Shown: piece by piece, positions 3,077 through 34,349 of the stretch | Layout of the letters: each line of letters starts with the position of its first letter | Numbering within the stretch: the stretch's first letter is position 1 | From: Ulva prolifera | Lineage: Eukaryota > Chlorophyta > Ulvophyceae > Ulvales > Ulvaceae | DNA length: 64,000 nucleotides | Assembly (NCBI GenBank): GCA_023078555.1 | Contig: CM041199.1 | Span: 2,910,513 to 2,974,512, forward strand | Reading direction: 5' to 3' | Translations under genes and position numbers: made by a program | The notes under the pieces: model-generated | What the model saw: the letters and a program-made list of their open reading frames with translations, nothing else | Databases searched by the model: none | Told to the model about the DNA's origin: nothing

Positions 3077-3095
3077 GTAGGTCATCCCCCATATG

Positions 3096-10000: not shown

Positions 10001-10479
10001 GCAGACTCCCACCGGCGGCCAAGTTTGTCACCGCTTTGGACACCTCACCCTTGTGCCCTGACAGGACGGATCGGCAAGCTGTCTCCTGGTAGACCTTCAC
10101 TGCCAATTCATCGCTTGGAGACCTCCCGCTTTCAGAGCAGAGAAGTGCCGCCCTCGTCTTCTCGTACAAAAACAACGAGCACAGGGGGTTACAACCCACC
10201 GGCACGTTGCAGGTGGGCTCGGGCACCTTGAGTTTGGCTTTGCCCTTTTTACCGCCCGTCCCCTCCTCGGCCTCTGAACGCTTGGTGCTGGGCACGTCCA
10301 TGCACTGAGCGTCTGGGGGGAGGCCACTGAAGAAAAAGCACCAGGCCCACAACATGGCCCGAGGAGTGGCGACGTAGTACTCTACAAAACACACCCCGCT
10401 CACACAACGTGATACACCACGTGCAACTGTCGGAAACACGGCGACAGGGAGGCACTGTCGACAGTACACAAGTGTCGTA

Positions 10480-10534
<55 letters not shown>

Positions 10535-11321: not shown

Positions 11322-12574
11322 CTTCTACAACACTTTTCGAAATTATCTGAAAAAACTTTCGGGACGCAGCACACAATCAGCTGGCCGCAGTAGACGCCAG
11401 GACGATACCAGCGATAGATACACAACTCTGAGTCTATGTCAATGCCGTGATGAGACCGCGGTCACGCGACAACAACCTTGCCTCGTCTGAAGCGACTCAC
11501 AGCGCTCTGGGAAACTTGGAAGGTACCACGCTCACTCCAGAGTTCAGCAAAGTCGATACTCGGTGCTCGTGGGCATCCTGTCGACACTTCAGCAGCCGGG
11601 CTCATGCATTGCTCGCATACAGAATGGTTGGTGAGGCACCGACCATTCCACGAAGGTGCTGACTGGGCACACAGGCGCTGCCCTGGAAGGGGCACATGCA
11701 TTGCTCGCATACAGAATGGTTGGTGAGGCACCGACCATTCCACGAAGGTGCTGACTGGGCACACGGGCGCTGCCATGGAAGGGGCACATGCATTGCTCGC
11801 ATACAGAGTGGTTGGTGAGGCACCGACCATTCCACGAAGGTGCTGACTGGCGCTGCCATGGAAGGGGCACATGCATTGCTCGCATACAGAATGGTTAGTG
11901 AGGCACCGACCATTCCACGAAGGTGCTGACTGGGCACACAGGCGCTGCCATGGAAGGGGCACATGCATTGCTCGCATACAGAATGGTTGGTGAGGCACCG
12001 ACCATTCCACGAAGGTGCTGACTGGGCACACAGGCGCTGCCATGGAAGGTGCCACACCGACCATTAGCAGGCCAGATCCAAATTACGAATGAGGTCCATA
12101 TCTTACCCAGACAATCCAGCGTTGCACCAGACCAGCCTATAAGGCGAATCCTCGACGCATATGTGCGTCGCATTTAAATCCTGCTGTGCTCACTCCTTTC
12201 CAACATAATGTGTCAACACATTTCCAAGCTCGGTCTGCCGGACCTGCATGTGCGCTGTAGCTTTCGCAACAGCTTGCAATGGCTTTCCAGTGTTCTTCAT
12301 CTGCGGAGACTGCTTGGCCTGGTCTCGCGCTATGGAAGAGCACACGCGTACGTTCCGGTCAGCGCTGTTGCCCAGGATGCCATAGGACATTCCGCGGCAA
12401 CCAAGGAAGCCATAGGACATTCCGCGGCCACCGAGGAAGCCATAGGACATTCCGCCACCATCGTTCCTTGTGAAGCATACGCACGCGGGCGGAAGGTCAA
12501 GAGCCTCGTAGGAACGTTCCTCTGTCAGCGGAACGCCTTCGGTTCCGCCCCGGAATGTCACCATTCTCCTAGTG
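11322..12574. repeat. Right subterminal region of element A with five palindromic repeats
   Basis: Five units of about 92 bases (one of about 83) carry a near-palindrome, GAATGGTTGGTGAGGCACC followed by GACCATTCC, near 11622, 11714, 11807, 11890 and 11981. They are separated by GGGGCACATGCATTGCTCGC-type linkers. Closer to the terminus are three 30-base direct repeats beginning GCCATAGGACATTCCGC at 12379, 12409 and 12439. Dense repeats in the subterminal region are typical of CACTA elements, where TnpA-type proteins bind. The array also lies upstream of ORF2 (start 11321), so it may act as its promoter. Confidence 0.85.
12556..12574. repeat. Right terminal inverted repeat of element A
   Basis: TGTCACCATTCTCCTAGTG. 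Its reverse complement begins CACTAGGAGAATGG and matches the left ends of elements B and C over the first 14 bases, then again with one mismatch (GGTGACA versus GGCGACA). Confidence 0.9.
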
Positions 12575-13746: not shown

Positions 13747-14638
13747 ATGGCCTCCAGCAACAATGGAGCCGGTGTCGCCGCAGCAGGAGGATCTCAAGTT
13801 TGTGACGCCCCACCATCAGGGTTCATGACACCAGGGTATGGTGGGGAGGCGCTTCAGGGCATACATCCTCCAGGAGTCATGATTAACGCCGACTTACTGG
13901 CTGCCGTTCCACACACCACTGCAAACCAAAGCACGCCCCTCTCAGACCTGGAGCCAGGGCGCGTGACTCCGCAGCCCTCCCTCGGCGCCACCACGCACAC
14001 AATGACCGATCTCACTCAGGTAGACTGGACGGAATTCAAGAGGTGTGTCTGCATCTACTTTAATTTGGGCCTGCATACTTGCCCACAGACAGATATGTAT
14101 ACCTCAATGTTGGATGTGCTAGTGCGCGGTGCCACCAAGACTAGTGCAGTACTGCACGAATACATATGTGGCCGCCGGTACCGTGGATGAGGAGCCACTG
14201 TGGCTGTCTCCTCTGACCTCTAATGTGAAATTGTCATGTCATGTCAGCTTATGAGGATGCAGTGCCTGCTTCCAGGGTATTCGTAGCTCTGAGCGATTGT
14301 CCAATACGCTGACGTTGTGCAAGGTATAGCGCTGTTCGGGGCAGGCAGGCATATACGTGTACATGCTTGGAGTCAGTATCATAAATCAAACTTCAATGAG
14401 CGTCTCGCATGTATTGCTTGAAGCACTGAGGCCGCGCCAGATGAGTAGACATACTTGCTGCTGTGTGTCACGATGAACTATAGCTACACCCCGTCGAGCG
14501 ATGCCCCGTTTGCGCAATATCCTGCATTGGTGAGATGGTCTAGAATATGTGGTGATGTTTATGGCATGTACCTGTGAAAGGTCCACACGCAGGAATTTCA
14601 GATTCTTGTGAACATGCAGGGCGGCCGGAGGTGCGGAC
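13747..14638 (+). CDS. Kinase gene 1, 5' part, interrupted by element B
   Basis: Exon 13747-14042 starts MASSNNGAGVAAAGG and ends DLTQVDWTEFK, matching kinase gene 2 (TPQPSLGATTQTATDLTQVD). The donor follows AAGAG as GTGTGT at 14043. The intron runs to the CAG at 14617-14619, and the next exon begins at 14620, reading (R)AAGGAD up to 14638, where element B starts. The reading frame continues exactly at 32254 after the transposon and its GAC duplication. The start codon is provisional; more 5' exons with membrane segments, as in gene 2, may exist upstream. The gene is presumably inactive unless the element is removed. Confidence 0.75.
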
Positions 14639-14672
14639 CACTAGGAGAATGGCGACACGGTGAAACGGATCC
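14636..14672. repeat. Left TIR of element B with GAC target duplication
   Basis: GAC at 14636-14638 is followed by CACTAGGAGAATGGCGACAC from 14639. The same GAC follows the right end at 32251-32253. The first 24 bases match the inverted right end with one mismatch. Confidence 0.95.
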
Positions 14673-15189
14673 GGGTGTCGTCCGCCAGATTCCGAAAGTC
14701 CGTTCACTCTCTGATACCTCTCCGACGTCATCGGAAGCGAGCAGTCGGATGGACCTTGGACTTTGGCACCGAATCATCCGCCGACCCAGGTATAATCTGC
14801 CGGACTGTGGACGTACCTTACCGCTGCAAGTGGCCTTCGCGTGTCTGCGCCGGCTGCCATGATACGAGGTCACTTCGGGCCCAGCCCGCGCTGACAGTGG
14901 ATCGAATGATACTATTGGTTACTTTATTACTACACGCGTATCTGGAAACGACTGGATTGGACACGGTGCAGGTATATGTGGACCCATACTCATGGCAACT
15001 GACATCGACTTTGGGCAGGAGACGAAGCGGCAGGAAGCTGGAGGCAGGCTCACAATAGCGGTGACTTTCTGCATCGCCCAAGATAGCGTTGGTCCGTATT
15101 TCAGGCTCGGCAGCAGTCCATGTAGTGTTGGTCGTCGCCCTGTGAATGGTGGCCGGAAAAGCGTGCACATAGGTTCCTGGATGCGAATG

Positions 15190-15560
15190 CATGCGGTGGT
15201 CCAGAGTGGCCATTCGGCGAATGGCCACTCTGGCGGAGTTACGTCATCATGCTCCAGGTAAGGCGTGCGCTCGTCCTCCTGGACGCGAATGCATGTGATG
15301 GTCCAGAGTGGCCATTCGCCGAATGGCCACTCTGACGGGGTGACGTCATCGTGCTCAAGCAAATGTGTGAGCTCATCCCGATTAGTACCTGGCTGCGAGT
15401 GCATACGCTGATCCAGAGCGGCCATTCGCCGAATGGCCGCTCTGGCGGGATGACGTCATCGTGCTCCAGGTAACGAGTGAGCTCATCCCGATTAGTACCT
15501 GGATGCGAGTGCATGCGCTGGTCCAGAGTGGCCATTCGCTGAATGGCCGCTCCAGCGCGG
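15190..15560. repeat. Left subterminal palindromic repeats of element B, upstream of ORF2
   Basis: Four units spaced about 104-112 bases carry the palindrome core GGCCATTCGCCGAATGGCC, flanked by AGAGT/ACTCT arms, near 15205, 15303, 15412 and 15522. The first has the opposite central base and the fourth is imperfect. Units 2 and 3 are followed by TGACGTCA (15341-15348, 15451-15458) and unit 1 by TTACGTCA (15239-15246), a CRE/bZIP-type site. The array is 550-920 bases from the terminus and 250-600 bases before the ORF2 start, so it may serve as both transposase-accessory binding site and promoter. Confidence 0.85.
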
Positions 15561-15806
15561 TTGATCTCACCCTGCCCTACCCGAGTGATCAGGCGCCTTT
15601 GCATTCGGGGCCCCCAACTTGGGTCGTGCTTCATGAAAGGGACAAACGGTGGATATTGTGTATGATACGGCTAACGTCCAGCGTTTGTAGTTCACCTGGC
15701 GTTTCAGTGCACCGCGTCCCCGCTGGCGTCGTATTCCTTCGCCTAGCTGCGCTGCTCGTGACCAGTTACCGCATCCGGCAGTGACTAGAATATTTGTTTG
15801 CATACA

Positions 15807-18800
15807 ATGGATCCGCGCCATGCTGCAGCAGATGCAGGGCTGTCAAGTACCCAGAATGGGCCTACTTCCGCGCGCAGCGGAGACTTACTCGTCGGTCGCA
15901 TGCGTACTCAGAGAATCCCTGTAGTAGGTACTTTAATTTCAAGGGACGGGCGTTTTACTGATCGTGCCCGCGTCGGCCGCAACGACGGTCCACTGTCCGG
16001 TCCTGGGGTGTCGGTGTGGTGGTCCCTGGGGGTGGTTCTGCAAGACGACGTGGTGGAGAGTCGGACGAGGGAGCTGGGTACGGCCAAGGAAGTGATTGTC
16101 ACTACCTGTCTCGTGCTCTCCTCCTGGCTGCACGAGCAGGCAATGCTCGTGTCCTCGTGGGAGGGCAAAGGGAAGACCCCACATGGCTGCCTGGTGCCCC
16201 GGCGGTGGAAGCCCCTGTCGGGAAAGACAGAGGTGTGTGTGCCCGGTGTGCTGGTGGATCAGCTGAGCGCGATCTGCATTTACTGCCAGCCCACTGACAC
16301 GGGGCCCGGCTAACCTGTGGAGTGGGGCCAGGACTCAGTGCCGCCATTTGTGCAGGTTGAGATCACCGGCCACGTAAGTGAGTCTGGCCTCCCTAAGACC
16401 AGAATCACAGCGGAGAGAGATCCGGAGCTTCGCCAGCGGTTCGATCTTCCTCAGATCAACGTGGGGGGAAAGCGCAAAGGCCTGGACCCCCCGCGTCCAG
16501 ACGGTGTGCTCTCTGCACGCATGTTGTTATGTAACGCAGTCACGTATGCTGTCCCCACATCGTGCGCGGCATGGCCTCCGCATTTGTGCACAAGTGACAT
16601 GGGTGTTCTCGGTGCAGTGTATCATTGCTCCACCCCGCGACACGTCGTGTGGGCCTGGGCTTCCTTCATGTCTGGGCTGTCCCCTCATCGCACCAAGTTG
16701 TGGACAGCCGGAAAGGCGTCTCCCGCGGTGGAGGGTCACGGGTCCTCCAGGCACAGGGAGAGACCCACATCCAACCTCCCAGAGGACCTGAACCCGCTGG
16801 TGGCGTGGGTGCTGTATGAACACGTACACTACCTCCAGCTCGAGAGCATGGATGAAGATGAGCTCGAGCCGTGTCAGTCGATAGCACGGCACATTGGGGA
16901 CCGGTGCCACAGGATGTTGGCGAACACAAACGGGGTCCCTGCACAGCCGGTTTTCCAGCTGACCTCGGGCGTGCCGGTGTTAGCTGACATGCACACCTCG
17001 CACTCGGACCTCATCAAAGCTTTCGTGCGCTCCTGTGACTTTCCATGACTCCGGCATGGACAGGGGGACTGCCTGTTGGTCTGTGTGCTGTCCTGTTCTA
17101 CCAGGCATTTGTGCCTTATCGCATGCATGATCGTGGCCATGGTGCCCCGGGCCCTGTTTCTGTTGATCCCTCAAGTCTGGCCTGTCACCGGCCTGGGCTC
17201 GAGCTGTGTAGTCAGGTCTCTTTGCGTGCAGGATGTCAAGATCCTCGGTGAGTTTGTCGCCGCGCTCGACAACTTAGGACCCTGGGTATTGGCTTATGCG
17301 GCGGAGCACCCTCTGTTTGATTGTGCAGAGGTGCGAGGTGCCACTGACCTGTACATGCCATCGAGAGCTGCGTGTCTGTGCAGAGCTGTATATGCTTTCT
17401 GTTGCCCGTTCCCCATTGTTGAGTATACCTGGATCTCGCCGTGCAGGGTGACCGAGTAGCCCGAGCTCTCCGTCCGGCGTGGAGTTCTGTCCAGGCATTC
17501 AACTCCCACATCATGTGGGCATGTGAAGGGCTGCAGCTGACCTCTACGGAACTGGCGTCCTTCGCCACGAATGGGATCCACCTGTTCATGCATGCTTATC
17601 GGCGCCTCGTCGCCGCGGCTGTGACGGGGGACCCGGGGGCGCCTGTCCTGGAGAGGCGGCGTGTGCAGGTCATTCCAGCCTTGGAGCCCAGCCTCCTGGA
17701 TCCCGCCTTTGCCGCCATCCTGGTGTGCACGGTGAATACCAGCAGTGCGCTACCAACCTTTTCTTCTCCATTGTTCAGGATTCAGTTGTTACCTGCTGTA
17801 GCCCCCGATGTGGGGCAAGACTCAGCTTTGCAGACAGTGCTCTCGTCTGAACCACGCGGTGCATCCAGGTTTGGTGAAATCGGGGTATGGTCAGCCCGTC
17901 AAGAGGCTGGCCGACGACCTGATCCCCTTGTGCCCGCCCCACACGCTGTGGCACTGGGCGCTCAGGAGCTGGCGGTACCTTAGCGTGGGGCAGAAAGACA
18001 CCGCGGGGAGCAGTTCCGGGAAATCAGCATCCCCGCCGGTTGTCCGCCTTAGGCCAGGATCATTCCCCGAGATCAAGGACTGGGATTATGCCGGCGCTGA
18101 AGAGCTTGCCAAGCTGTCCTTGGCCAAGGGGATGCAGAGCTCTCAGTGTTACATGTGCGAACCCCCGGTGATGGTCCCTAGTCCAGGAGTGTCTCTTGCA
18201 GAACATGCTCCCTACATGTTCAGTCGTATGCGACTGAGTACTGGCCATCAGATCCTCTTGTTCTTTCACCAACGGGAGCATGTGCTGCTGTTAGTTGATC
18301 CAGAGTTGACATGCACGGGCCCTGGGACTACCAGCGTGTTCTGTTTGTTGTTGGCGACTCCGGTTAATGGTACAGGGCGGAGCTCAATAACCTTCCCGAA
18401 GGTATCCTCGCCACCCTGCCCGAGGACTTGTGGCAGCCGCCTGTCGTAGCACCCCAGCCTACCCCTGGGGCAGGGGGTGCCGGTGACACCCCTGCCTCTG
18501 GCCAGCGCAACCGTCGACGAACCGGGAAGCACGAGGTAGCTAAAGCACGTACCAAGTCGCTAATGCTGCGTAAGATGGGCCTGCCACCAGCCAAGAAGGG
18601 GGACACAGCCGCTGGCGGCACCGATACCGGCGGCAGCGACACTCAGGAATCCGGTGGGGACAGGGGCACCACCCGCCCTGCGTCCAAGGTGGCCACAGGG
18701 CCAGAGGTGCTCGGCCTGGGTTCCGCTGCGGGACCGGGGCAGGGGGGGGCAGTCTCCCAGCCGGGGGGGGGGTGCGTGTGGCCGTCCCGCAGAGGCTGTG

Positions 18801-19386
18801 CCGGTCACGGCAGCGACAGGGGGGTTGAGCCTGACTGTGGGGCGGGGGGTGGTTTGGGGGGGAAAGCAGCGGCGGTGGCAGATTCGGCGGCGAAGGCGGG
18901 ATTGAACCCCACTGTGAGGGTGGCAGCCACTGGGGGGGCTGCGGAGGCATTGCCAGTCACAGCGCTGAAGGCGGGACTGAGTCCCGTGGAGGGGAGGGCA
19001 GCGGGGGGGGGGGACGCGGAGGCTAAGGCAGGCTTGGCGGGGCAGGGCGGGTTGAGCCCAACGGTGGCGGGGGAGGCGGTGGGGGGGGACGCGGAGGCTA
19101 CGGCAGGCTTGGCGGGGCAGGGCGGGTTGAGCCCAACGGTGGCGGGGGAGGCGGGGGGGGGGGGCCGCGGAGGCTACGGCAGGCTTGGCGGGGCAGGGCG
19201 GGTTGAGCCCAACGTTGGCGGGGGAGGCGGGGGGGGGGGGGCCGCGGAGGCTACGGCAGGCTTGGCGGGGCAGGGCGGGTTGAGCCCAACGGTGGCGGGG
19301 GAGGCGGGGGGGGGGGGGGGGGGGGGGCGCGGAGGCTAAGGCAGGCTTGGCGGGGCAGGGCGGGTTGAGCCCAACGGTGGCGGGGG

Positions 19387-19426
<40 letters not shown>

Positions 19427-20286
19427 CTGGGGGGGGCCGGGCTGCGGAAGCTATGGCAGACATGGCGGCGCGTGGCGGGTTGAACCCACCAGTGGGGGGG
19501 GAATTTGTGGAGGATTTTGCGGGGATCCCCTTGCAGGGTCAGGACGCTACAGGTCGTCCAGAAGTGGGCCCCTTTGGCCTGCCTGTCCCCGTGCCGGCGG
19601 GCGGACCGGAACCCGTCCCTACAGGGTTTATGCAACCGGACAGTGCGGAAGGACGTGGGGATCTGGTGTACGATCCGGTAGCAGACGCCATGTTTGCAGA
19701 TGCTCTGGCGGAGGCAGTGCTGTATCCGGAAGACCACTCCTCAGATGATTTCGGATCCATCAGCTTGGATGACGACTCGGATCGTTCTGACCCAGCGGAC
19801 CCCCGCTGCGCTGTGCACGAAGTGGCGACAGAGGACCCTGAGACTAGGCCGTCCCAAATAATCTACCTGCACGATAGTTCGGGGTCAGTTCGTCTAACCG
19901 TGGACGAGTCCTTCGAGGAGCAGAAGACTACCCTGCGCATGGCCGCCACTTTCCTATCTCCTCCGGGTGGTTCGGTCGGGCGTGCTGCTCAACTGCGGCT
20001 CATTGTCGTGGCAGTTGACCTGATGTTGGTAAGCACCGCCGGCATGGATTTGACTAAAGCGGAGCGCTTGGTCCGCATGAAGTCGATCATATCGGCGTAC
20101 GGGCTCCAACCAGATGAAGACACTGTATCCGAAGTTGTGTCACTGATTCAGACGGTGCGCTCCTCCAAGCAAGTTACCCCCGCCCCCCCCCCCCCCCCCC
20201 CCCCTGGCCAGTCTGTCGCATGGCCGTGGTGGGCCAATTCTCTACTCCCTCTCCCAAGGCAGACGTACAGAACCCAGGGATGTTGA
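15807..20286 (+). CDS. ORF2, unrecognised CACTA-borne gene, element B
   Basis: Starts at 15807 (MDPRHAAADAGLSS), 1.17 kb inside the left terminus. Conserved blocks: PVVGTLISRDGRFTD; STPRHVVWAWASFMSGL (about 16630); LLDPAFAAILVCTVNTS (about 17695); TQLCRQCSRLNH, a Cys pair; TLWHWALRSWRYL (about 17945); EIKDWDYAGAEELAKL. Then come a basic Lys/Arg segment (KHEVAKARTKSLMLRK, about 18527), a Gly-rich repeat region (18990-19430), and a C-terminal acidic plus helical region ending near SEVVSLIQTVRSSK. Short introns separate the blocks. A poly-C tract at about 20184-20205 gives a different C-terminal frame from element C (stop 20286 here). No known domain; nuclear DNA binding is a guess from the basic segment and the context. 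Confidence 0.65.
18990..19436 (+). repeat. Gly-rich tandem repeat of about 76 bp in ORF2 (B), five units
   Basis: Units contain GGCAGGGCGGGTTGAGCCCA followed by ACGGTGGCGGGGGAGG and a G run of variable length. Five copies of the GTTGAGCCCAACG motif lie near 19051, 19129, 19205, 19280 and 19366; element C has four. The last unit runs into a long G tract at about 19388-19426. The variable G runs change unit length, so the coding frame through the array is uncertain. Confidence 0.9.
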
Positions 20287-20338
20287 CCGTGCAGGGACGC
20301 AATTCTACAGAGGGCAGCGAAGCCGTCCCAGCCCCGGA

Positions 20339-20432
20339 TCCTGTGGTGAATACTGGTTGATGAGCAAAGTCCCTGGGGGATGGGGGCCTGTGGTGAAAAC
20401 TGGTTGATGAGCTAAGTCCCTGGGGGATGGGG
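20339..20432. repeat. Tandem duplication of about 50 bp after ORF2 (B)
   Basis: TGGTTGATGAG(C)AAAGTCCC followed by TGGGGGATGGGGG occurs twice in tandem just 3' of ORF2. The same duplication is present at 51909-52003 in element C. Confidence 0.85.
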
Positions 20433-21088
20433 GTGCCGGTAGCACATCTGCGTGGGAGTACACTTTAATGCGGCGTGCAGTGTCCGCTAAGCCATCAAGC
20501 GTAGCACTTCCCGGCAGTATCAGCATAGTCACTTTGTTAATGCAGATGCTACGGGAATACGTCACAATTCTTCCCAGTTCGGCGGTAATACAAGGACGGT
20601 GGGCCACATCACTGTACAGTGATGCAACCCCGTCTACTAGTGCCATACGCTCTGCTATAATGCAGGGGTTGACCGTTGTACCCCTCTAATCCTACAGCGC
20701 CGACCTGGTGTAGCCGTTGAGGATTGATAGGATTTTTACACGAAATAACGATTAGAATACTGAGTCGAACTCCGTACGCAAACTGTGGCGTCTTGTCTTC
20801 TGCAGACAATGTGTTCAGAACAGTTTCAGCTGTGCCTGCCTGGCAGCAGCCCGCAGCGCTGCAGATACACCGAGGTTCAGTGCAGCTGCAGCGAAATGGC
20901 ATCACCTGGCCTGTGGCGTCGGAATGTCCCGGATGCCACCCTTCAGTGACTCATACACGCGTCTTCAGCGAAATAGCCATCAGCTTGTTATACTGCTGAC
21001 TCAGGGTAGCCACTACCGGGCTCGCCTTCTCCAGGAAGGTGTCAAAGCGCGCCTGCAGGTACCACTCCCTGCAGATCCAGCAGCTTCA
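20433..21088. other. Intergenic region between convergent ORF2 and protease genes (B); conserved spacer at 20712-20905
   Basis: Positions 20712-20905 are the element B copy of the spacer described at 6593-6793, in the same absolute orientation although A and B are reversed relative to each other. A 37-base stretch near 20590-20625 is missing from element C. No gene is recognised in the remainder, which may hold transcript 3' ends of both flanking genes. Confidence 0.7.
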
Positions 21089-21671
21089 TCAGGCAAAGGT
21101 CCCCACCGGGCCTCCAAGGGGGTGCCAGAGGATAGATGGTGACAATGCTGCGGTGGACATGGCAGGTGCATCGAGTCGCCCGCACCTCAGCCCCTCTTCG
21201 GAAAAGTCGTTGAATGGCGGTGTCTGGAGGTGGCGGTCCCACCTAGCGTCGGCTAGCATCTGGGTGCCGTCCTCGACTGATAAGTGTCCCAACTTGTCGC
21301 CCCCTCTCCCGCCTCGGTGCCACTCTTGAATGAGGGCTCGAGTGAGGACGATACGGTACAGCACCGCGTGCTGCACCTTGACGCGGTTGGTGAGTAACAG
21401 GACCCTTCGAGTCGCCTCGTAACCGTGGATGTCACTGCTGAACACAGTTCCCCCCTCCTGTCGCATGCGGTGGATGACGTCGCACACAGCGTCGGCCAGC
21501 ATGCATGTGAAAATCCCGCAGTCGTGGCCGTTTGGTTGCTGCGGGGTTCCTCCAACCTGGACACCACTGGGGGACGGTTATAATGCTAATGTTACGTCAA
21601 CAGATCAGGTCCACCGCAGACCTTGGACGCGGGGTGGTTCCAAAGCAGTACGCTGTCCGGTTTTGGGCAGA

Positions 21672-21722
<51 letters not shown>

Positions 21723-23694
21723 TATGACAGTCCCTCGCACAGCAGGCTACCTCATCACATTGTCAGCTGCTGCGGGAAGGCGTACATGGGTGCCAGATGA
21801 CAGCCAACATCCAGTGGCTGTTCCGGGGAATAGGGACTAAGACGCATTCTTGCTCAAAGGTGTGAGCTCTGAACATCCACCGCCCCATAAATCTGGTGCG
21901 TCCGCTTTACCAGTCTGCGTCCGCATCCCCAGTACATATCCCAGCCATATTCTGGCTAGGCGTTGCAATGACGCCCTGCCCGGCCAGCGCGACACACCTA
22001 CTCAAGGCGTAGTCAACGTGTGCACTCTCGGCCCATGCGGTGGGCCAGCCTCTCGCGAGGGTGTCCAGACCGACTGTAACAGACACCCGAGCATCCCCAA
22101 AATGCCCTAGCTGCAAGGTCACACCGCCCACCACATTCGGGAACCTCTCCCCATCCTCGTCGCCGGAGGACACTACGGTCGGTTCAGCTGCCTCCTGCGT
22201 TGTGTCGGCAGCGGATGAACCGGCGTCTTTGGAAGTGGACCCCCACTGCTGCCTCAGCTTGCCCGGAGGCTTTGCAGGGAGGTTTGTGACCCAATCCGGT
22301 GGCACCACCGGAGGGTGTGCCAGGAGGGATGCTGACAGCCGCGGGACGTCCGGGGCAGGAGGAAGTGCGGACAGGATAGGCCCCTCTTGACCGGGTGCTG
22401 GACAAGCAGGCTCCGGAGAGGACCGGAGCGGGGGGGGGGCCTCGCCGATGGAGCAGATGGCTGCACCGACTGGGGCAGGTTGGGGCCCCTCGCTAGGGCC
22501 ATCATCAGGGGTGACGGATGGAACCTGATTGGCATCGTCCAGCCGTGGCGGCGGCAGACAGCCACTGGTCCGCGATGGCGACGGCGGCCTCACAGGGCCA
22601 ACCGGCTGTGGGGACTGCGGGGGCAACGCCACAGGGGGAACCCTTACTGCAGCCGGCCCCTCTGGCGGCGGATGATCCCGGCTAAGGATCTGCGCTACGG
22701 CCGCAGCCCCCCCCCGTGCGGCACCCCGTGCCCCCCTGCGCAACCTAATTCGTGCGGGCTGCTGCAGATTGGTGCCCCGAACTGCGCGCCCTCTACCCGG
22801 TGCCCTTGCCCCTTGTGCCTCGCCAACCCGCTGCTGCTGCCGCAGATTGGTGTGTCTGCCACGCCCCTGCCTTCGGTCACCCGGGCCTATACTGGTGGCT
22901 ATGGACTCTGTTGGCGGCGGGGCAGCGACTGCACCCGGTCCTGGGGCTGTGGCGGTGCCGGTGACGCCCCCAAGAGCGGCGTCGGGTCCCCCCCGGTCTT
23001 CACCGTCCGACCCGCCCGCCCCACCCCTCTCTAGCTGTAACGCCAACATGGGCGCCTGCAGAGGCCCCACCTGAACCTCGGAGCGAGGCCACTTAGGATT
23101 TGGAGTCCGTGCGAAGTTTGCCTCGCACTGTATCCACTCGCAGATCAAGTCTGTCCCGCCCGTGTGCCGCACACGTTCGAGCAGGCCGCCAGCGTCTTCT
23201 ATGATGCCCGCGCCGACCTGGCAAGACCGGTACAGCACGATCTCCTCTGGCTTGCACGGGGCCTTAGTATGGACCGCGCGCTCGAATGCGATCATCCGGA
23301 GGTCGTGCCAGAGGGATTTCATCTTCTGCTCTACCCGCGCGGCGTGGTCGGCGGTTTGTGAAGCCTCTACACTCTCCTTCATCGCCCGGATCGAGTCAAG
23401 GTACATTTCTAACCCTTCCCCCCCGGCCTCCACTATAGAGCCCACCATGGTAACATCTACAGTCGTTAATAGGTAGGCGTTGGCCATGAAGTCTATCGGG
23501 AACCCGGGCTTCCGGGTACAGATCGTTAGTGCTGGGATCGGCTGGCCAGGCGTCCAGTTACCCTTCAGGGCGGTTTCCAGGAACCGCTTGAAAGACGAGT
23601 CACACGAACGGTTACTATGAATTGTCGCAAGGTAGGCCCGCAAGTCCCTGTCCGTTATCATACTGGCACACATCGTGTGAACTGTACACCGCAC
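21089..23694 (-). pseudogene. Ulp1-like cysteine protease gene of element B, broken
   Basis: Starts near 23694 (MCASMITDRDLRAYL). An N-terminal domain (GNWTPGQPIPALTI) and a Pro/Ala-rich linker precede the C48 protease region. The catalytic Cys exon is present (QQPNGHDCGIFTCMLADAV, about 21500-21560) and the His exon is still visible (NSHWMLAVI, about 21805). Compared with element C, two defects appear. A TAA stop at 21907-21909 (TCA, Ser, in C) truncates the protein before the His. The whole exon with the catalytic Asp (FFDSL in C, 53266-53634) is missing, replaced by one poly-G tract at 21674-21720. The B copy therefore cannot encode a complete triad. Confidence 0.8.
21674..21720. repeat. 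47-base poly-G tract at a deletion junction
   Basis: A run of 47 G. In element C the same flanks (CGGGCAGAGA on the left, CATATGACAGTCCC on the right) are separated by two G tracts (53211-53231 and about 53689-53719) with about 460 bases between them. B therefore looks like the product of recombination or collapse between the two tracts. Confidence 0.9.
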
Positions 23695-24026
23695 AGAAAC
23701 GTTCTATCCGCGCTATCGCGACGCAGTCTTCCTACATCAACTGCATCAGACCTTGCACCTACCATTAATCTGTCCGCTGGACCTGCGACGTGCACTAACA
23801 GACGACACCGACGCTTGAAGACCAAGCGAAAGTGGCCACGAGCGCACGCCGCAGGACGTGGGTTGTATGGCTCCAACGAGGGTGGCGCCTGTAGACACGC
23901 ACTGGCGGGGACTCTGGTCCCCCCCGTGGCCCTCTGGCAAGTATGGACAATGCAAAGTGGGCACAACTGGGATTGCAGTCAACTGGGATTGCTGACGAAG
24001 GCATATGCGGCGGTGGTCTTGTACAA
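23695..24026. other. Region between Tnp2 stop and protease start (B)
   Basis: About 330 bases between two minus-strand genes, presumably holding the Tnp2 3' end and the protease promoter. No palindrome like that upstream of the element A protease gene was found here. Confidence 0.5.
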
Positions 24027-27000
24027 TTACACAGTTCGGCCAGAAGCCTTGTTCGCAGTGGCCCAATACTGCACATTTTGTGCACCCCTCCGGACTGGAA
24101 CTAACTGGCATGGAACTGCGTCCAAGTCTACGACGTATCTGCCGGCATATGCCCGAGACCCCCTGTTTGCACCCGCCACACCGAAAAACTCAGGGGGGCG
24201 TTTCAACACGGGATCAGGGGCGCGGGCTCCCGGGGTGGCTGGCAAGGTGCAATTATACAGATCAGCAACCCCCAGGTACAATGGGTTTGGTTTCGCAACA
24301 CATGACACGCAACACACGCCATCCCGGGGCTGCAGACACGCCCTCGTGAAATACTGCAGTTCCCCGACGAAATACGTCACTGTCCCGCCACCCCCGTCCC
24401 CGTCCCCCCCAATGAGGTACCTCAAGAGGCACCACTTGTTGTCTTTCTTCCCTTGCGTACCCTGTTGCGCGCAGCTGAACATGTCTGCAACGCGGGATTG
24501 CATCTGGTGGAACTTCATCAGTGTCACTGTGCCCTCACGGCGAGCCTCATCAACAGTGCCATTCACCTTCAGGCCCAGAGCTCGGTGGATGGCCGCGCGA
24601 CGTGCATATCCAACCCCCAGGCGACAGTGAGTTGGCCAGCCCTCATCCTGTAGGGAATCCTGATGGAAGAGGAGGTACGGCAGCCCTGTCAGCTCATCTC
24701 CCACGAAGTCAAGGGGGAGGACCTCTGCAGTCTCAGACTGGGCAGGAGCCCTGCCCACCCCGACGACCCTGCCGGAGATCCGGTCGCTGTCGACTGATTG
24801 ATCCCCGTCAGCGGATCTTCCATTGCGAGTTCGTGCCCGCCGGCGTTTCTCCGTCGCTATGGCATCCGACAGTGAGGTCATGGCAGCAGGCAGTGAAGCT
24901 GCATCATGTAGCAGCCGCATACATGTGCGGCGCAGCAGTTCATCGCTCACGTATACTTGTTCAGGGCAACGAGTCGATCGATATTTGATCAGCCTCTTCA
25001 AGAGCTGGACCATCCGCTCGATCCAGAATTCAAGACTGAAGAAGGATGCACCGCAGCACCTCACCTGATCCGGGAGGTGACAAGCTGCCAGATGCAGCTT
25101 GTACGTGCTGAGAGCGGCGCCCTCAAACGTCTCCTCCGCCAGCTTGGCGTACTGCAGCATCAATCGCTGTGCTTCCGTGATTCGGGCCGGTGTGTGCTGA
25201 CCCTCTTCATATCTGAGAAAGTAGAGGGCCCCTGCTCGCAGGAGCCCCCACGACTGCACAAACACACTGCGTATGCGTTTCTCGGAGGCTTTCCACGGGA
25301 GATCGTGCAGGAGGTACAGCGAGAATGTCTCGGTGAAGGCCAGCCGGTCTTCCATGAGCCAGCGACTGCGGTGCCTACGCAAACAGTCACCCTGACTCAG
25401 ACGGGCTGCTTCAACAGGAGTGCACATGGTTCCTGCAGCTGTGTCCAAGTAACAGTCCGACAAATGGCGCAGCCTCGGATGCGAGCAGGGTGTGCAGGCG
25501 ATGGGACTGCGCACTTGGTGATGTCGGTGTACACCTTCTTGAAAAGAGAGGTCTGCATGATGTGGGGCGCTCTGGCAGCTATCGCCTTGACGACATCCTC
25601 TGGCAGTCGGAACAGGGCCCGGAGGCCAGTCAATGGCGCCTTCTTGGACTTCTTCCGGCCCAGGGGAGGGAGCCACTGGTTCCAGAAGTCCATGAGCACA
25701 CCGAGCAGAAACACGTGCGCCACTCCGAGCCGGAAGAAATGGCAGGGACTGCAACGCCACAGCGTATTTCATAATCAACTCCAGACTCAAGGGCGAGGCA
25801 GGCAGCAGCAGGCTGGGGGTGCTCGTACTTGAAGTAGGAGAGGTGACTGAACAGCGGAGAACCTTCCACCCCCAGTAGCTTGTACTCATCTTTGGCGAGC
25901 TTGGCCCTGGACTTCGGTGTCTTCCGGTCGCAATAGCGTTTCAAGGTTGGTGCGTGGACCTGCACTACCACAGGCCTGGCCAGGGTTACCACAAGAAAAG
26001 AGCCGTATCACCAACGACGCTTGTTCGGTGACAGAGGGGTTGGCATGATGAGTTGCGGCGCACAGAGGGGGGGCAGGGGAGTAGGCGGCATGTGCACAGT
26101 TTGCATTCTATGACACTGTAGATGGAATTGCACCTGGGCAGCGATCTTGTCGCCCTTTCGGCCCCTGGCCAGGATCTCTGCCGCCGAGTACTTCAAGCGG
26201 TTGTCAGACTCCCTGGACGAGGGCTGCACATGCCGGGGCTCAGACCACGCGGTCCGCGGCGGGTTGCCACCAGTGTCCGGTTGTACACTCCCAGGCACCA
26301 TCCGGGGGTTTGCAGCAGAAGATGCCGCTTCTTCCTCCGGGGTGAGTGATTTCCCTTTCAGAGGCCCGTCGGCATAGCAGGGCACAGGCTGCTGCAGAGG
26401 GTGATGGTGTCCCAGCCACCTGTGTGGCATGCATGATAGCAGTTATGAGCAGGACAGGTACGTGAGACAGCACTAGCAGGAAAGAGATTACAAACGTAAG
26501 TGAACACCCCGGACCTGACAGTGTTGGCGGGGTAATCCCACACGCCGTTTTGGGCACATCTGAAACATGCCCTCTTCGCTGTATGGCCGATGCTGTTGGT
26601 AAGTTTCTCCAGCCATGGGATATCCCCCTCCACACAGCACAGCACCGGCCACACGTGCAGTACCTCGCCCCCTGGCAGTGTGATTTCGAGTGCCTCACCC
26701 CCAGCTCCTGCACTCCAGCCATCACGTGGTGCGGGGGCCAGACACTACGTGATCGGGAACTGTACACATCACCCGGCAGTGACCAGGAAGACAAGGTGAG
26801 TGCGCGCCCGGATCATGCTTCTTGAAGAACGCCATCACGGACTCCAGAATGCTGGCCATGCATGTTGGTTCGGATGGCCCCTCCACCACTCCAAGGGGAA
26901 TCCAGGCCACATTGGTACTTGAGAGATGGGGCGGCAGGTCAAGCAGGCGGATCCCCCAGATGGTGACACCGTGCTGCTTGTTGACATACAGCTGGGCCCC

Positions 27001-28554
27001 GTCCCCCCCTGCAGGAAAAGCGACTGTCGGGACACGAGGCAGAGGGTCTCAATTCGCGGAGTCGCATAGGCGTGCCGTTTCGGTGTGCCTGATAGCCAGC
27101 TGCTCAGATGAGGAGGTGGAGCGCACCGAGGCTGAACAGCAGGACAAGCTCCCTATGCTTTGGCTTCAGGATTTTGCCCCCACACGCCAGGTTGAGGGCC
27201 TTTCCAGCCGGGGAGTTGAGGAAGCTGCTTTTGTCTTTGACAGCTGTTGCCCTGGCTTCCCGTACGCTCGTCAGCAGCCCCGGCTGCAGGAGGAGGTCTT
27301 TCAGCGAGGCTTCTTCGCCAAAGAAGAAAGCAGAGCGCACTGGGACACCCTTCCCTGTGAGATCGACATCGAATCGCTGTTGACAACAACCAGGGGTTCC
27401 GCAGGTGTCCGCCAAATGCTGGTGATGGTCACCCGGATCAAGTGGGGGGAACAAGGTCCAGCATTGGGGACAAACGTGGCGCGTCACAGAGGAAACAGGC
27501 GGGACACCCAACACCGCCTTGACGAGGTGAAAGGAGGGGGGGAACAAGTTGCCATCGGGTAGCAGGAGGTAATGTATGAACCTGCACCACGTATCGACGA
27601 CCACGTCTTGTATGCGAAAGAGGCTCTTCAACTGGGCAATCCACATGCACACCGTGAGGACGGTGAGGGCGCTGCCAGTGTATATGTGTTTCATGCGTTG
27701 GTCATGCCACCAGGCGCCCGTGCCCTTACGGGCCCCTGTGGTGGGGAGCGGGCCGTCGTCATCCGCCTCCTGCATGGGCAACGATGCGGCCAGTCCCACG
27801 GAGGAGTACGAGCGGATTCACAGCATTGCATGTAATGGAAGATGAGGACACACCTCGGATTCGTCTGAACTGTAGTCCGTCTCTGAGGAGAAGGCAATGG
27901 AGTCTGCGTCTGAGGTGTCTGAGTCGGCGTCTGAAAATTGTGCGGGGCCCTCGGCATAGTCACTTTCGGACGGTGGGGGCAGCTGTATCACAATCCCAAC
28001 ACATCAGAGTTGCTTTGGGCGAGCAGGCAGGATACAGCTGAGGGACAGACGCGCTGACACCCATGGCCATCGTGATCACGAGCCGCTGTCAGGCCGAACT
28101 GCATCATGATCAGGCAAACCGGGACTTAGCACGGTCAACTACCGAAGGTACGCACGTCGAAGAGGTCGTCGGAGTGGGCAGGCTCATCGGGGGGACCCCC
28201 TATGTCTGGAGGTGATGGGGATCTCCCAGAGGGACCGGCCCCGTCGTGTCTGCCGCTGCGGTCATCATCGGCAGTAGCGGAGGTCGGGCCAGCGGCTGGC
28301 CTCGAGTCTGGGCCCGCGACGTCGTGTCCACCAGCGGCTCTCCGCGATGTGGCTGCTGCACTCAGTCGACGGCTGCAAGGACCGTGATGGTTTTGGGCGG
28401 TGTTGTGCCTCTGAAACTTCTCACCACAGGCTAGACACTGGTATTTAAACGGTTCCTTCCCCGTCGGCTCGGGAGGGGTCAGGCGCTTACAGTTCGCTTT
28501 GGCAACCAATTCGTTCACCTCCGCCCTCTTCAGTCTATTCGCCGAACCGGCCAT
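24027..28554 (-). CDS. CACTA Tnp2-type transposase, element B
   Basis: Full spliced gene from 28554 to 24027. Exon 1 (28554-~28138) has a zinc-finger-like YQCLACGEKFQRHNTAQNHH motif and an acidic/Pro tail. A Ser/Asp-rich exon follows near 27990-27835. Exon ~27799-27104 has the Tnp2 cysteine motif (RHVCPQCWTLF... CGTPGCCQQRFD). Then come GDGAQLYVNKQHG (about 27005), CCVEGDIPW (about 26630), an exon about 26400-26125, one ending SYFK (about 25830), PCHFFRLGVAHVFLLG to KKVYTDITK, and the last exon from about 25375 with DUF4218-like HLPDQVRCCGASFF and DUF4216-like YFVGELQYF...LYLGVADLY, ending KASGRTV. The likely catalytic Asps are in GDG and EGDIPW. One oddity: MEDRLAFTE here where A and C read MEDWLAFTE (near 25348). 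Divergent from gene D. Confidence 0.85.
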
Positions 28555-28891
28555 GGTAGCCAGCAGTACTTAAGCATTCTTGTGACGAGGTTCAACAATA
28601 GCGCGGCCTCTGGTGTTTGTCGTCCCTATGATGGCTTTACGTCCCACGAAGACCTCCCTGTCGCATCCCATGTTCGCCCTGACGCCACAATCCCTGGCGA
28701 GGCGCCGGGGTATCGAGGCAGCCAAACCTTTGAAGGCGGACCGCGCGACGACGCTACATCGGCATACCATTCAAAGCACGGAGCAGCAAAGCATGTGCGA
28801 ATGACGCGATATGTTAGCTGTGCCTACGATACGACCATCCACAGTACCGGCCATAGACGTGTGTTAATTCCGCTTTGTCTAATCATCCACC
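28555..28891. promoter_or_regulatory. Divergent promoter region between Tnp2 and gene D (B)
   Basis: 337 bases separate the Tnp2 start (minus, 28554) from the gene D start (plus, 28892). Both transcripts must begin in or near this interval, so a shared bidirectional promoter is inferred. No clear TATA box or palindrome array was seen. Confidence 0.5.
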
Positions 28892-31436
28892 ATGTCCAAC
28901 CTGCAGTTCACGTTCCTCCGCGCGGCGCCCGTCGTCATCGAGAAAGAAGTTGTAGATGACGCAGACAACGGAGCAGGGATGCTTGACGTGCTGGTCAGCA
29001 ACGTGTGGAGCAGAGGTGCCGGCGTCGACGGGTTGACTTTGACGTCAACCGTCGACAAAGACAGCTCCGTTGATATCGACAGTGTCGAGAAACTGATGAC
29101 GTGCGTAAAGTACTTCTTCAGGAAAGGCACAATCGCTGGACTGCTGAAGCCGCCCGTGCTGGTGAAGGCGCTGGGCAAGGGCAGAGGGAGCGTGGGACAA
29201 GCGTCGGCAGCCGTCGGCACTGCACACTCCACAGCTACGGCCTTGACTGCGGACCCCGAAGCTGCCAGGCGGTGGGAAACGATGAAGGATGCGGTGATGA
29301 TGTGGACGGAAGGGATGAGATCCAAGGTGGCGGGAATGGCCGATGCCCACACGCGAGGCAAGAAGGTGCAGGCACTAGTGAACCTGGCCCTCCCAGACGA
29401 CGAGAAGGTGTGGGTCGGGAGTATTCTAACGAAAACACAGGCGGACGCACTCGGCAAAGCTGCACATGGGGTACGGCTGCTGTCTCCGACTAACAACGTG
29501 ATTGCAAACTGGGGTCCACTACCACCCCGTCAGGGCCACGGGATCGCATGCCACCGACTGTCAGTGTAGTGTCTTGGCACGTCAGAGTCGCCATTCGCGG
29601 TCAGTATGCAGTGACGGATATCGTGTACAGGTCGGCAGAACAGGTGAAGCGTACGAAGCTGCTACTAATATCAATCATGCTTTCTACCGCCAGCACGCCC
29701 ATTTGAACGCCGTGACCAAAGAGTGTGCCTCTGCTGATGCTCGGGTTATGCCGTACCTGTTGCCGTGCCCAACGGTGGCGGAGAAGGGAAGCACACAGTA
29801 TCCGCCCAAACGGAGGTGACCCGATGTGCAGTAAGTTTTCGAGACGGGCGTGGGACCATAACACGGGCCTGCGGAGGAATCCCAGCGCCCGCGAGCAGAG
29901 GAAGCTGCTCGCGGCAATGAATGTGTTCCAGAACACCAAGGCATGTCCTCCACCTTGGTCCGAGTTGGAGTGGCCATTCGCCGAATGGCCACCCCAGCGC
30001 GAATGCATTGTGTTGCACTGCACGCGGCCGGAGTGGCCATTCGCCGAATGGCCACTGCAGCGCGTCATGCATTGTCTTGCACTGCACGCGCCCGGAGTGG
30101 CCATTCGCCGAATGGCCACTCCAGCGCGTCATGCATTGTGTTGCACTGCACGCGCCCGGAGTGGCCATTCGCCGAATGGCCACTCCAGCGCGTCATGCAT
30201 TGTGTTGCACTGCACGCGCCCGGAGTGGCCATTCGCCGAATGGCCACTCCAGCGCGTCATGCATTGTGTTGCACTGCACGCGCCCGGAGTGGCCATTCGC
30301 CGAATGGCCACTCCAGCGCGGCGCGGCCTGCTTGAATCCGCACTTGCATGGCCACTGACCTGCCATTCGGCGACTGTGTTCCAACCAATGTGGTTCGTGC
30401 GCAGTTCACCGTGAGAGGAGACCGCTTCCCTATCGATAGCGAACCCATGAAAACCCCCGAGGCCTGGGCTATGGAGGACGGTGAGTATGTGTGCGAAGGA
30501 ATCGCCAAGGTTGCTGCGGCCCGGCGCGCCCTCGAAGGGACCGCTGACTCTCCCGTCCAACGGGGCAAGAGACAAAGGAAGACCGAGAAGGTACAATCTC
30601 ACCACACGCTGTACTGCCCGCCTGAGGTTGGCCATTAAGTGGTACCGGGATTGTACGGGCGCCTGTGTGAGCGGCATGTGCCATCATTCGAGGCAGCCAT
30701 GCGTGTACAGGCTCCTACCGCATCGAAGTCAGGAAGACGGGGCACTCATTCCAACAGCGGACGGCGCACAATGCTCGCTGACTTTTCTCCCCGGCGGCCA
30801 GGGCTAGAACCAAGGGCAGACCGCACTGCTGATAAGGACAGTGAGCACCAGCCGGACGTGGATGAGGTGGGTCACGATCAGATGGGTGAAGAGGAAGAGC
30901 CTGATTCTCCTCAGCGGGCAGACGATCGATGCGAGTCCCCGGAGATGGAGTTACAAGCCGCAGCGCCGGCATGTCCTCTTATGATTTGTGCCAATTGACG
31001 CCTAGTCCGATTGTACTTGCCCCACCCATCATCAGACCAGGTGTAAGAGCGCCTGTACATTGCAGAAGTCCAACAAAGCTCTTGAGAAGCGAAAGGCCAA
31101 GGCAGAGAAGGAGGCCGCCTACCAAGCGCGTAGGGATATTCGGAAAAAGATTGAGGATTGCGAGGCTAAGCTGGCAAGGCATCAGCCCAGAAGCAAGGGT
31201 GCGAGTGTGCAGAAATTAAAACAGCAGCTTGCTGTATTGACGGTATGTCACTACCCCGATACACTTGATCTGACATGTGACACCAATCCCTGCAATTGTA
31301 GCACTATTTGTGTGACAGTCGCTCAGACCACGAATGCATTAGAGCCGTGCACTCATGCAGCTGGTATTGCATGCAGGCCGAGTTGTCAAAGGTGCAAGAC
31401 TCCTTAATTGACGGCTTCCCGAAAGAGGACGAGTAG
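28892..31436 (+). CDS. Gene D, unrecognised coiled-coil protein of element B
   Basis: Start at 28892 in a good context (CCACCATGTCC). Exons that join in frame: 28892 to about 29491 (ends LLSPTNN); 29631-29722; 29799 to about 29938 (SKFSRRAWDHNTGLRR, ends VFQNTK); about 30401-30591 (FTVRGDRFPIDSEP... RQRKTEK); about 30711 to about 30970 (acidic, VDEVGHDQMGEEEEPD); about 31065-31242 (ALEKRKAKAEKEAA); and about 31378-31436 (AELSKVQDSLIDGF), stop 31436. Introns such as 29723-29798 (76 nt) keep phase. The C terminus is a Lys/Glu-rich predicted coiled coil, suggesting dimerisation. One intron (about 29940-30400) holds six palindromic repeats with the same core as the left-end array. Function unknown; a TnpA-like DNA-binding or architectural role is inferred from context only. 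Confidence 0.65.
29960..30325. repeat. Six palindromic 63-bp repeats inside a gene D intron (B)
   Basis: Units spaced 63 bases, near 29967, 30030, 30093, 30156, 30219 and 30282, carry GGAGTGGCCATTCGCCGAAT and the return arm GGCCACTCC, joined by AGCGCGTCATGCATTGTG and TTGCACTGCACGCGCCC. The core GGCCATTCGCCGAATGGCC is the same as in the left-end array of B. The array lies about 1.9-2.3 kb from the right terminus. Long antisense and alternative frames open through it are by-products of the repeat. Confidence 0.9.
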
Positions 31437-32250
31437 ACATGCCAGTGCATTGTATGGTTGTATTTGGGCCATCTCAGGACCATCTTGCAGCCTGTACGTA
31501 TACATAGGTCCTTTGCCCGGTCCTGCCCGCGGAATGTCAGGGAGTCTGTCCTGAGGAAATGTGTGGGAGTGTGAGCTATGTATGAATCTAGCGATGAACA
31601 AGGAAAGCACGCGCCATGTAAGCACCTACAGCATATGAATGCAGGCATGTTGCCAACTGCAGCCCCGTGTTCACGTGCCTCATAACAAAGAAAACAACCA
31701 CATCATGCTTCCACAAAACCGCGATCCTTCCTGCACTCCGCTTACATGTGCGCGACCAAGTCTGATCCGGTAATAACGCCCATGACGCCTTTGGTCAAGC
31801 ATTGCGTGTCTACAAGTGCACACTCCTCGTAACCATACGTGAGTATATCTCAAGCCAGACGGATACATGTACGTCAAGAGGTCACCAATCCTACGGCCCA
31901 GCCTGTACTTCCCGCATCCCCGAGGCGGACGCCATACGGATCCGAGACGGATCCGAAATTTAGTGCACGCGTCCGTAGTCCCTCCGTCGGACGCACAACG
32001 GAACCGTCTTTTCTTCCGTACATCCTCCGGTTGGGCTCCGAAGGCAGGCTAGTAACAAAAGGCGTTGCCCTGGGGCGTACCGGACGGGAATCGGAAAATC
32101 CTACCTGCCTCTGCCCCACCTCCGCCACAAGTCTCCGATACTCCTAGCAACCTACGTCCGGCCTCCACCGATTCTCCGTAGGCTCTCCAACTACCCCTCC
32201 GCACACACTACGTCAGCTCTCCGATTCACCGTGTCGCCATTCTTCTAGTG
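31437..32250. other. Right subterminal region and TIR of element B
   Basis: Non-coding stretch after gene D. It contains scattered short motifs (CGGATCCGAGACGGATCCG near 31937-31957) and ends CACCGTGTCGCCATTCTTCTAGTG at 32250, the inverted left end. No gene was seen. Confidence 0.8.
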
Positions 32251-34349
32251 GACGGGCCGCTAGATGAACTTGAAGTGGCTCTGGATGGCATGCACACTAT
32301 GCAGACTCCATTCTGTTACCGCTACAACATTATGTCTTCAATAGAGAGGCGTGTTGGTGGTCAAGGGCTTGTGCAATTCGCCAGCATCGCCAACACCCAG
32401 GAGAAGGTGCGCTGCCGCAGCTAGCATGCATGGCGCAATCGGCAGCGTGACCCGCAGCATGAACGACTGCTCCCCGCGGCCGGGCGCTCTTCACAGGTTT
32501 CCAGCGCGGAACTCTCATATTTGTATGGTGTACAGTTGTTTCTCATAAAGCATGCAACAATGATGCTACAAAAAGTGTCATTCGTGCACATTGCACCAGA
32601 GCTTTTTAAAGCGGCATTGAGGGGCTGTGTTGTCGGCTTGCAGTACGGGCTGCAGGCGCATTGATGGGTGTGCTCTGTGGGTAGCGCAACCAGCACAGCT
32701 GGCCACTGCAGGCTGCCTTTTGCGGTTGACATGTATGGTGACAGCCTGATCATGAGGGTGAATTGGTCTAAATGCTGTATGTGCAAATGTGGTGTGATGC
32801 ACAGCTAGCGTGTGACAGGTGCATCATGGTATACTTTTGGGTAGTAGGTGATCCACATGTGCACCGAGTAAAACTGTCCAAGGGGTCGACACAATGAATT
32901 CGGAGTTGACAACCTTGTGCTGTGAAGCATGCACAGTGTCATGCAACAATCTGATTCCCCTTACAGCCACGAACAATCAAGACTCAGGAGGGCTCTCTGC
33001 CATTTTAGTATTGTTGCCCCCTGACCTAATCTACTGCTCACTTGGTGTGAAGCTGATGGACACTGCATTGCCGCCATAATGTTGAGCAATGTGTCGCAGG
33101 CAGCGATCAAGTTCTACATGGACCGGAGCGCGTTTGAGCGGGAGCGGGAGCTGTACACGGAGTCGCAGCTGCGCACCATGATGCCCGCGACCCTCACCAT
33201 CGACGACAACGCCTCCGGCGCCGCCGCCACGCCCTACGGCTACCGCTTCCCGTCGTTTGTCATCATCGAGCACGGCCAGCGCCTCGACGAGTGGGCACGC
33301 CGCAACGACGCCGACTTCATCACCATCTTCCAGGTGCGCCGCTGCCGCATGTGGCTGCATGGTGGCGTGAGCAGCCCGTTGAATCATAGTCCGCACGTCT
33401 CCGTCTCACCCATACCATCCTCTCTCCCACTGCGTCTGCATAGCTTGATTCCTAAATCAGGCGGTGCATCTGGTCATGTGCAGTGCATTGTAGGTTCAGA
33501 TATGCCTGCAATCACAACTTCAAGTTGGTGACTGTCAAAACTTTTGCTGCCCTTGCAGTCCCTGAGCCATGCGGTGCGGGCACTTGCACGGCTGCACGGC
33601 TTTGGCTACGCCCACCGCGACATCAAGCCCGGAAATATCCTGCGCCGCCCCGACCAGCATGATTGGACACTCATTGACTTTGGCTGCACCGCGCAGATCG
33701 GTGCGTTCCAACTTCAGAAGTAGTGTCACAGCGATGCATGCGAGTCCGTCGAACGGCTTCAGCGGAGGATCGGAACGTGTTCAGTGATCAGTGGCCAGCT
33801 GCTATGATACAGTGTCGTGCGTATTATCGCAACTGCTGTGACTTCAGAAACATGCATGCAGCCCATGAATGCGCTGCGTTACTGCTGCTTGACTGCATCT
33901 CAGTGTGAACGTGAATGTGGGACGGGCCTGCAGGCACGATCGTAGCGCTCGCGTACTCGATGAGGTACGCCGCCCCGGAGGTCATCCGTGCCGTTGAGGC
34001 TGGCCGGAAGACCATCAAGGTCGACTCCGCCCTCGACATCTGGGCGATCGGCGTCATCGCGTTTGAGCTCCTCATCGGCGAGCGCGCCTTCAACGACGCA
34101 GGGCTAGCCCCGGAGGAGGCCGAGCGGGCTATCCGCGATGCCATCGTCGGCCGAACCGGCCTGCCGTGGGAGGGCCCAGAGTCCGGGCCACGCCTCCAGA
34201 AGCTACGCGGGCTTAAGAGAACGGTTCTGAAGTGCCTGGAACGCGACCCGGCGCGGCGGCCGTCAGCAGAGGCGCTGCTGAAGTCATGGGACCACACCTT
34301 TGACAACATGCAGACGCATGGGACGTTCCTTACCCGTGTTGCCAACTAA
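32251..34349 (+). CDS. Kinase gene 1, 3' part: Ser/Thr protein kinase domain
   Basis: Continues kinase gene 1 after element B and its GAC duplication. Exons: 32251-32406 (GPLDELEVALDGMH, glycine loop RRVGGQGLVQF); 33100-33333 (AAIKFYMDRSAFERERELY with the VAIK-type Lys and likely helix C Glu); 33559-33700 (HRDIKPGNIL catalytic loop and DFG); 33934-34349 (RYAAPEV, ALDIWAIGVIAFELL, ERDPARRPSAEALL). Donors are GTGCG and acceptors CAG, and all joins keep frame. All core kinase motifs are present, so the only visible damage to gene 1 is the transposon, which points to a recent insertion. Substrate and pathway unknown. Confidence 0.85.

Follow-up and report, generated by a model that had tools for sequence, protein, structure and literature searches.

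A 17.6-kb CACTA-like transposable element within a coding exon of a kinase gene in the alga Ulva prolifera

What occupies the third exon of a protein kinase gene in Ulva prolifera, how did it come to lie there, and what has become of the gene? The locus that raises these questions lies in a 64,000-nt window of the genome (assembly GCA_023078555.1, contig CM041199.1, positions 2,910,513 to 2,974,512 of the forward strand). We conclude that the exon, which belongs to kinase copy K1, has very probably been entered by a potentially autonomous cut-and-paste CACTA transposon of ~17.6 kb (element A), with duplication of the trinucleotide GAC, and that K1 would now be a loss-of-function gene. The material is the DNA of a single assembly, and statements on splicing and expression rest on its sequence. 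Coordinates are positions in the window, C4 and similar labels denote genome contigs, K1, K2 and K3 are kinase copies, and A, B and C are CACTA elements. A first-pass annotation gave the interval as 14636-32253, which takes in both GAC copies; element A proper spans 14639-32250, with the following parts.

14639..32250, no strand: CACTA element A, 17,612 bp (defined by its termini, the duplication and the exon restored)
14636..14638, no strand: target-site duplication GAC, left (border comparison)
32251..32253, no strand: target-site duplication GAC, right (border comparison)
14639..14669, plus strand: left terminal inverted repeat, 31 bp (29/31 identical to the right)
32220..32250, minus strand: right terminal inverted repeat, 31 bp (pairs with the left repeat)
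15176..15552, no strand: left subterminal array, ~110 bp x 3.5 (palindrome GAGTGGCCATTCG-N-CGAATGGCCACTC in its units, one variant with GCGGCC)
29967..30320, no strand: right subterminal array, 64 bp x 5.5 (palindrome core as in the left array)

The outermost bases of A read CACTAG...CTAGTG, the element starting with CACTAGGAGAATGGCGACACGGTGAA at 14639 and ending with TTCACCGTGTCGCCATTCTTCTAGTG at 32250, and its 31-bp termini pair with 2 mismatches. Border repeats of 1 to 11 bp were tried, of which 3 bp was the sole fit. The 24-bp terminus, with up to 3 mismatches allowed, occurs at 3 sites in the window (both ends of A and position 46316) and at none in 100 shuffles. The two subterminal arrays, lying 0.54 kb (left) and 1.9 kb (right) from the ends, share their palindrome and are compatible with binding sites for a transposition protein.

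On either side of A, and again downstream, the window carries members of one kinase family.

13918..14042, plus strand: K1 exon 2, 3' part, start not determined (kinase comparison)
14620..14638, plus strand: K1 exon 3, left of element A (paralogue comparison)
32254..32406, plus strand: K1 exon 3, right of element A (paralogue comparison)
33100..34349, plus strand: K1 exons 4-6, containing the HRD and DFG motifs and closing with the stop codon (exons 5 and 6 match PF00069)
43206..45243, plus strand: paralogue K2, exon 2 onward, ends approximate, with uninterrupted exon 3 at 43579-43750 (kinase comparison)
46197..46298, plus strand: decayed kinase copy K3, exon 3 3' part (the gene resumes at ~64474, outside the window)

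Joined through a single GAC, the K1 flanks form an open exon that reads EFKRAAGGAD|GPLDELEVALDGMH in frame, the K2 counterpart being EFKRAAGDADGPLDELEVALDGMH. A search with exon 3 returned 13 places, namely K1, K2, K3 and 10 elsewhere, 7 of which were read; the restored exon aligns without gaps across the junction to K2 and to 7/7 of these further paralogues, two of which (L084 and L085) are longer by 9 bases towards the exon's far end. Because the restored exon is collinear with its paralogues, we infer that the K1 exon was continuous before the insertion. The earlier proposal that removal of the element with one GAC restores an exon matching K2 is thus borne out. The further proposal, that the interrupted sequence is a kinase coding exon entered by a CACTA element, is supported by the termini, the exact 3-bp duplication, the collinear exon and the Pkinase domain (PF00069) matched downstream on K1 exons 5 and 6, where the HRD and DFG motifs are retained ahead of a stop codon at 34347-34349. 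The claim that both exon boundaries match stood for the acceptor (all of K1, K2 and the seven paralogues have TGCAG|GGC) and failed at the donor, where K1 has AAG|GTGCGC and K2 AAG|ATCCGC. This donor GT is present in K1, K3 and the seven other paralogues, and K2 has AT (43751-43752), which makes K2's own splicing questionable; by eye, a GT 48 bp past the lost donor is a candidate in-frame donor. In K3 the 5' part of exon 3 is not recognisable, and inspection showed its last exon to contain a stop and its frame to be broken at DFG. Over 939 bp, K1 and K2 differ with a synonymous divergence (dS) of 0.44 (0.16-0.83 by exon) and a nonsynonymous divergence (dN) of 0.035; the resulting dN/dS of 0.079 indicates that both genes were constrained by purifying selection.

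Element A belongs to a family dispersed across the genome, which was searched with the 300-bp left and right ends of A, 40 places being scored per end from 76 and 68 candidates. At least 40 places resemble each end (identity 89-100% for the left and 82-100% for the right); among the matches listed, CACTA begins 38/40 left ends and TAGTG closes 39/40 right ends. Pairing each left end with the nearest same-strand right end within 70 kb gave 29 pairs, 22 of which have equal 3-bp flanks (21/28 when each right end is used once), compared with 9/810 for wrong partners. Equality at 2 bp was found for 1/29 pairs and at 4 bp for 0/29, and the 22 matching pairs carry 20 different duplications; a 3-bp duplication is stated for CACTA transposition in a published account (PMC4158355). 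One copy, at C3:1549937-1553367, measures just 3.4 kb, keeps the two ends, is flanked by a GTG duplication and has the appearance of a deletion derivative. Identical flanks are common to several copies (C2:3783945 and 3862976; C4:10041519 and 10068583; others on C9, C1, C7 and small contigs), which points either to duplication of these loci once they contained the element or to haplotype copies that the assembly includes twice. With the matching termini, the GAC on both sides and the restored exon, these dispersed copies with 3-bp duplications of their own uphold the first-pass description of a complete 17.6-kb element with base-exact borders. They also bear on whether the A locus might be an assembly artefact or misjoin, a chance that we consider practically negligible: A is a high-copy repeat, as a misjoin would have it, but a misjoin could scarcely create a duplication of exactly 3 bp together with exon parts that are collinear on the two sides, and none of the 28 other pairs has ends identical to those of A, the nearest being one base away.

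That closest pair is the copy at C4:9293399, with 1/600 terminal bases different from A. Next in the window stand two further elements, B and C, neither of which was mentioned in the first-pass finding.

46316..64000, continuing to 64282 outside the window, no strand: CACTA element B, 17,967 bp, duplication CAG (in the intron that follows K3 exon 3, 17 bp from its start)
1..12574, no strand: part of divergent CACTA element C, inverted, duplication AGG (the whole being C4:2896345-2923086, 26,742 bp)

Elements A and B share 99.25% identity over 9,913 gap-free bp and 96.8-98.9% where shorter stretches of the left half are aligned, and the next-best copies reach 99% over the full 9.6-kb query (12 of 170 candidates scored). 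The earlier description of the insertion as recent is supported in a relative sense, since the divergence between copies is tiny (1/600 end bases for C4:9293399 and 0.75% from B over 9.9 kb) against the K1/K2 dS; the insertion is young on this scale, which provides no absolute date.

Since A sits within exon 3 of one kinase copy and B just behind exon 3 of a neighbouring one, their positions could reflect targeting to the kinase family or exon, or derivation of one from the other by a local hop. Both are highly improbable. Copies cluster mildly at 100-200 kb (6 pairs against 2.1 expected, 50/2000 simulations, and 13 against 4.2, 1/2000), but A and B form the only pair within 50 kb, where 1.03 is expected, and among the 40 + 40 element ends listed there is not one at any of the 10 other exon-3 places. 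The simulation distributed 42 insertions uniformly over nine contigs; these had been listed by hand with the aim of counting every distinct flank once, and shared-flank copies, contig C8, the small contigs (among them C11 with its one right end) and two right ends, C7:6255008 and C2:7370771, were set aside. Targeting to the kinase family was rejected on the chance-level count within 50 kb and the lack of any other exon-3 place at a listed end. B was likewise rejected as a local daughter of A on its end sequences, B differing from A at 8/600 terminal bases and so not being its nearest relative; the duplications, GAC for A and CAG for B, are also unlike.

Element C differs more from A. A block of ~200 bp (20709-20905 in A, 6590-6793 in C) retains 82% DNA identity, compared with 68-69% in the longest A/C alignments. 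Within C, positions 7780-8546 hold a nearly perfect 123-bp x 6.2 tandem repeat, and repeat arrays with inverted arms were seen by eye at 11598-12049 and at L003 588-799.

The similarity of A and C extends to a gene of several exons on the strand opposite to the kinase, and A also carries a protease-like exon.

24027..28554, minus strand: transposase-like gene, ~8 exons, borders approximate (protein-level homology with element C)
21092..21577, minus strand: exon with the Ulp1/C48 protease active-site motif PQQPNGHDCGI (PF02902, 22.4 bits, cut-off 20.7)

Protein identity between A and C is 33-80% per matched exon piece, and in the transposase-like gene the proportions of nonsynonymous (pN) and synonymous (pS) differences are 0.24 and 0.74, as measured on 2,475 bp from its better matched pieces. 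The terminal stop is the sole stop in these 2,475 bp in each of the two elements, so that the gene is conserved and open in the pieces compared; between A and B, its exon pieces show 8 base differences. The score for PF02902 (Peptidase_C48) rests on a stretch of 24 residues, and yeast ULP1 shares the motif PQQPNG-DCGI (E 0.012). A study of angiosperm CACTA elements lists DUF4218 and Peptidase_C48 among their domains (PMC8978399). No RNA family scored above threshold in the window, and 0/2 pattern matches in viral contigs and 0/128 in prokaryote contigs encode a relative. The genome, 88.9 Mb in size and with introns in its genes, gave 38 matches to the chlorophyll a/b-binding family, as would suit a photosynthetic eukaryote.

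Several observations weigh against a CACTA insertion that inactivated K1. Matching 3-bp flanks are lacking in 7/29 end pairs; three of these, with spacings of 31, 48 and 60 kb, possibly do not represent single elements, yet 4/21 of the pairs 15-22 kb apart fail as well. The exon search of the assembly found K1 itself and its paralogues and no empty K1 allele. Pfam matched no Transposase_21 in stop-to-stop open reading frames, in frames with stops read as X (a scan of all but the minus-strand frames of 14639-19999 and 29001-32250) or in the joined exon pieces of A and C; a genome-wide search with the PF02992 profile gave 0 matches, its controls being silent too. DUF4218 stays below its cut-off of 27 bits, at 12.4-13.1 in A and 16.6 in C, at a similar place in both. 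Lastly, a splice that would remove A from the K1 transcript, in frame and with a product one residue shorter, is conceivable on paper. The unmatched Transposase_21 would suit an element of a different DNA-transposon superfamily that is CACTA-like in its ends only. We regard such an origin as very unlikely given the CACTA termini, the 3-bp duplications, the subterminal palindromes and the DUF4218-like stretches which, although below threshold, are placed alike in two divergent transposases.

The effect on K1 follows from the reading frame. Translation from exon 2 into A ends ...EFKRAAGGADH*, the stop being the second codon of the element, upstream of the kinase domain. Because K1 was under purifying selection and its frame stops at this point, the insertion is most likely a recent knockout as judged from the gene sequence, although a cryptic splice donor, used with an acceptor that lies in the terminal repeat, might allow A to be spliced out in frame. 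The candidate sites for such a splice are a donor GAG|GTGCGG at 14630/14631 and an acceptor TTCTTCTAG|TG at 32248/32249, which together would give EFKRAAGVDGPLDELEV, translated EFKRAAG-V-DGPLDELEV. A would then be a giant intron, its exonic donor joined to the right terminus, and K1 might keep some function. The candidate donor scores 10.0, inside the range of 6.6-12.8 for 17 kinase-family donors chosen by inspection, and only 2/1108 GTs in 14600-32260, itself included, score as high. There are partial precedents in two reports: splicing of a soybean MYB intron also takes out the 13-kb CACTA element lying in it (PMC4219821), and introners may bring one splice site and take the other from the target (PMC9860276).

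Even so, retention of K1 function through splicing appears unlikely from the sites and intron lengths involved. It would demand an 11-nt microexon, the skipping of which would put the product out of frame, and a 17.6-kb intron, compared with ~0.2-0.7 kb for the measured introns of K1 and K2. Donor and frame may also be there by chance, AGGTG occurring within the last 30 bp of 3/40 left flanks listed, including those of A and B. The bolder proposal that full-length, potentially autonomous A became a removable 17.6-kb intron at once, through its TAG|TG acceptor and the GAG|GTGCGG donor with Gly-Ala replaced by Val, seems distinctly unlikely on the same sites; if true, an algal genome would provide a natural example of a whole transposon turned into an intron. 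Splice sites in En/Spm termini were reportedly described by Menssen et al. in 1990, to which we attach no weight here.

The preferred account, CACTA insertion with loss of K1 function, can be put as a sequence of events. A transposase of the CACTA group, supplied by A itself or a sister copy, would cut the termini, with binding at the palindromic subterminal arrays probably assisting transposition. A staggered 3-bp cut in K1 exon 3 would then produce the GAC duplication, and the stop at the second codon of the element, ahead of the kinase domain, would leave K1 without function.

Comparable elements are known from angiosperms. The soybean element Tgmt*, a 20.5-kb CACTA element in the F3'H gene, resembles A in its large size, host-gene location, 3-bp duplication, subterminal palindromes and transposase gene, but it lies in an intron and has 13-bp termini with subterminal repeats within 159 and 732 bp of them, whereas A lies in a coding exon of an alga and has 31-bp termini with arrays 0.54 and 1.9 kb inward (PMC2613891). 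The 13-kb soybean element TgmR is likewise large, within a gene and flanked by a 3-bp duplication; it occupies an existing intron, whereas A in its exon would require new splice sites (PMC4219821). CACTA elements of Chenopodium and other angiosperms encode, like A, a C48 protease beside the transposase, but their Transposase_21 and DUF4218 domains are recognised, the former being unmatched and the latter below threshold in A (PMC8978399). Introners, in which DNA-transposon ends supply one splice site and the target the other, offer a parallel that is hypothetical for A; unlike A they are short, with family medians of 30-654 nt, and are themselves introns (PMC9860276). A literature search of titles and abstract openings returned no description of an algal element like A, which does not mean that none has been published.

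The insertion is well resolved but ordinary: the type of event is well known, and the element is a new one of the known CACTA kind. Through this locus a large and apparently young algal CACTA family becomes known in its gene content, its copy number and, to the base, its borders; one copy is potentially autonomous, and the paralogues serve directly as controls for the interrupted exon. K1 is also well suited to a clean test of whether a splice acceptor can be provided by a terminal repeat.

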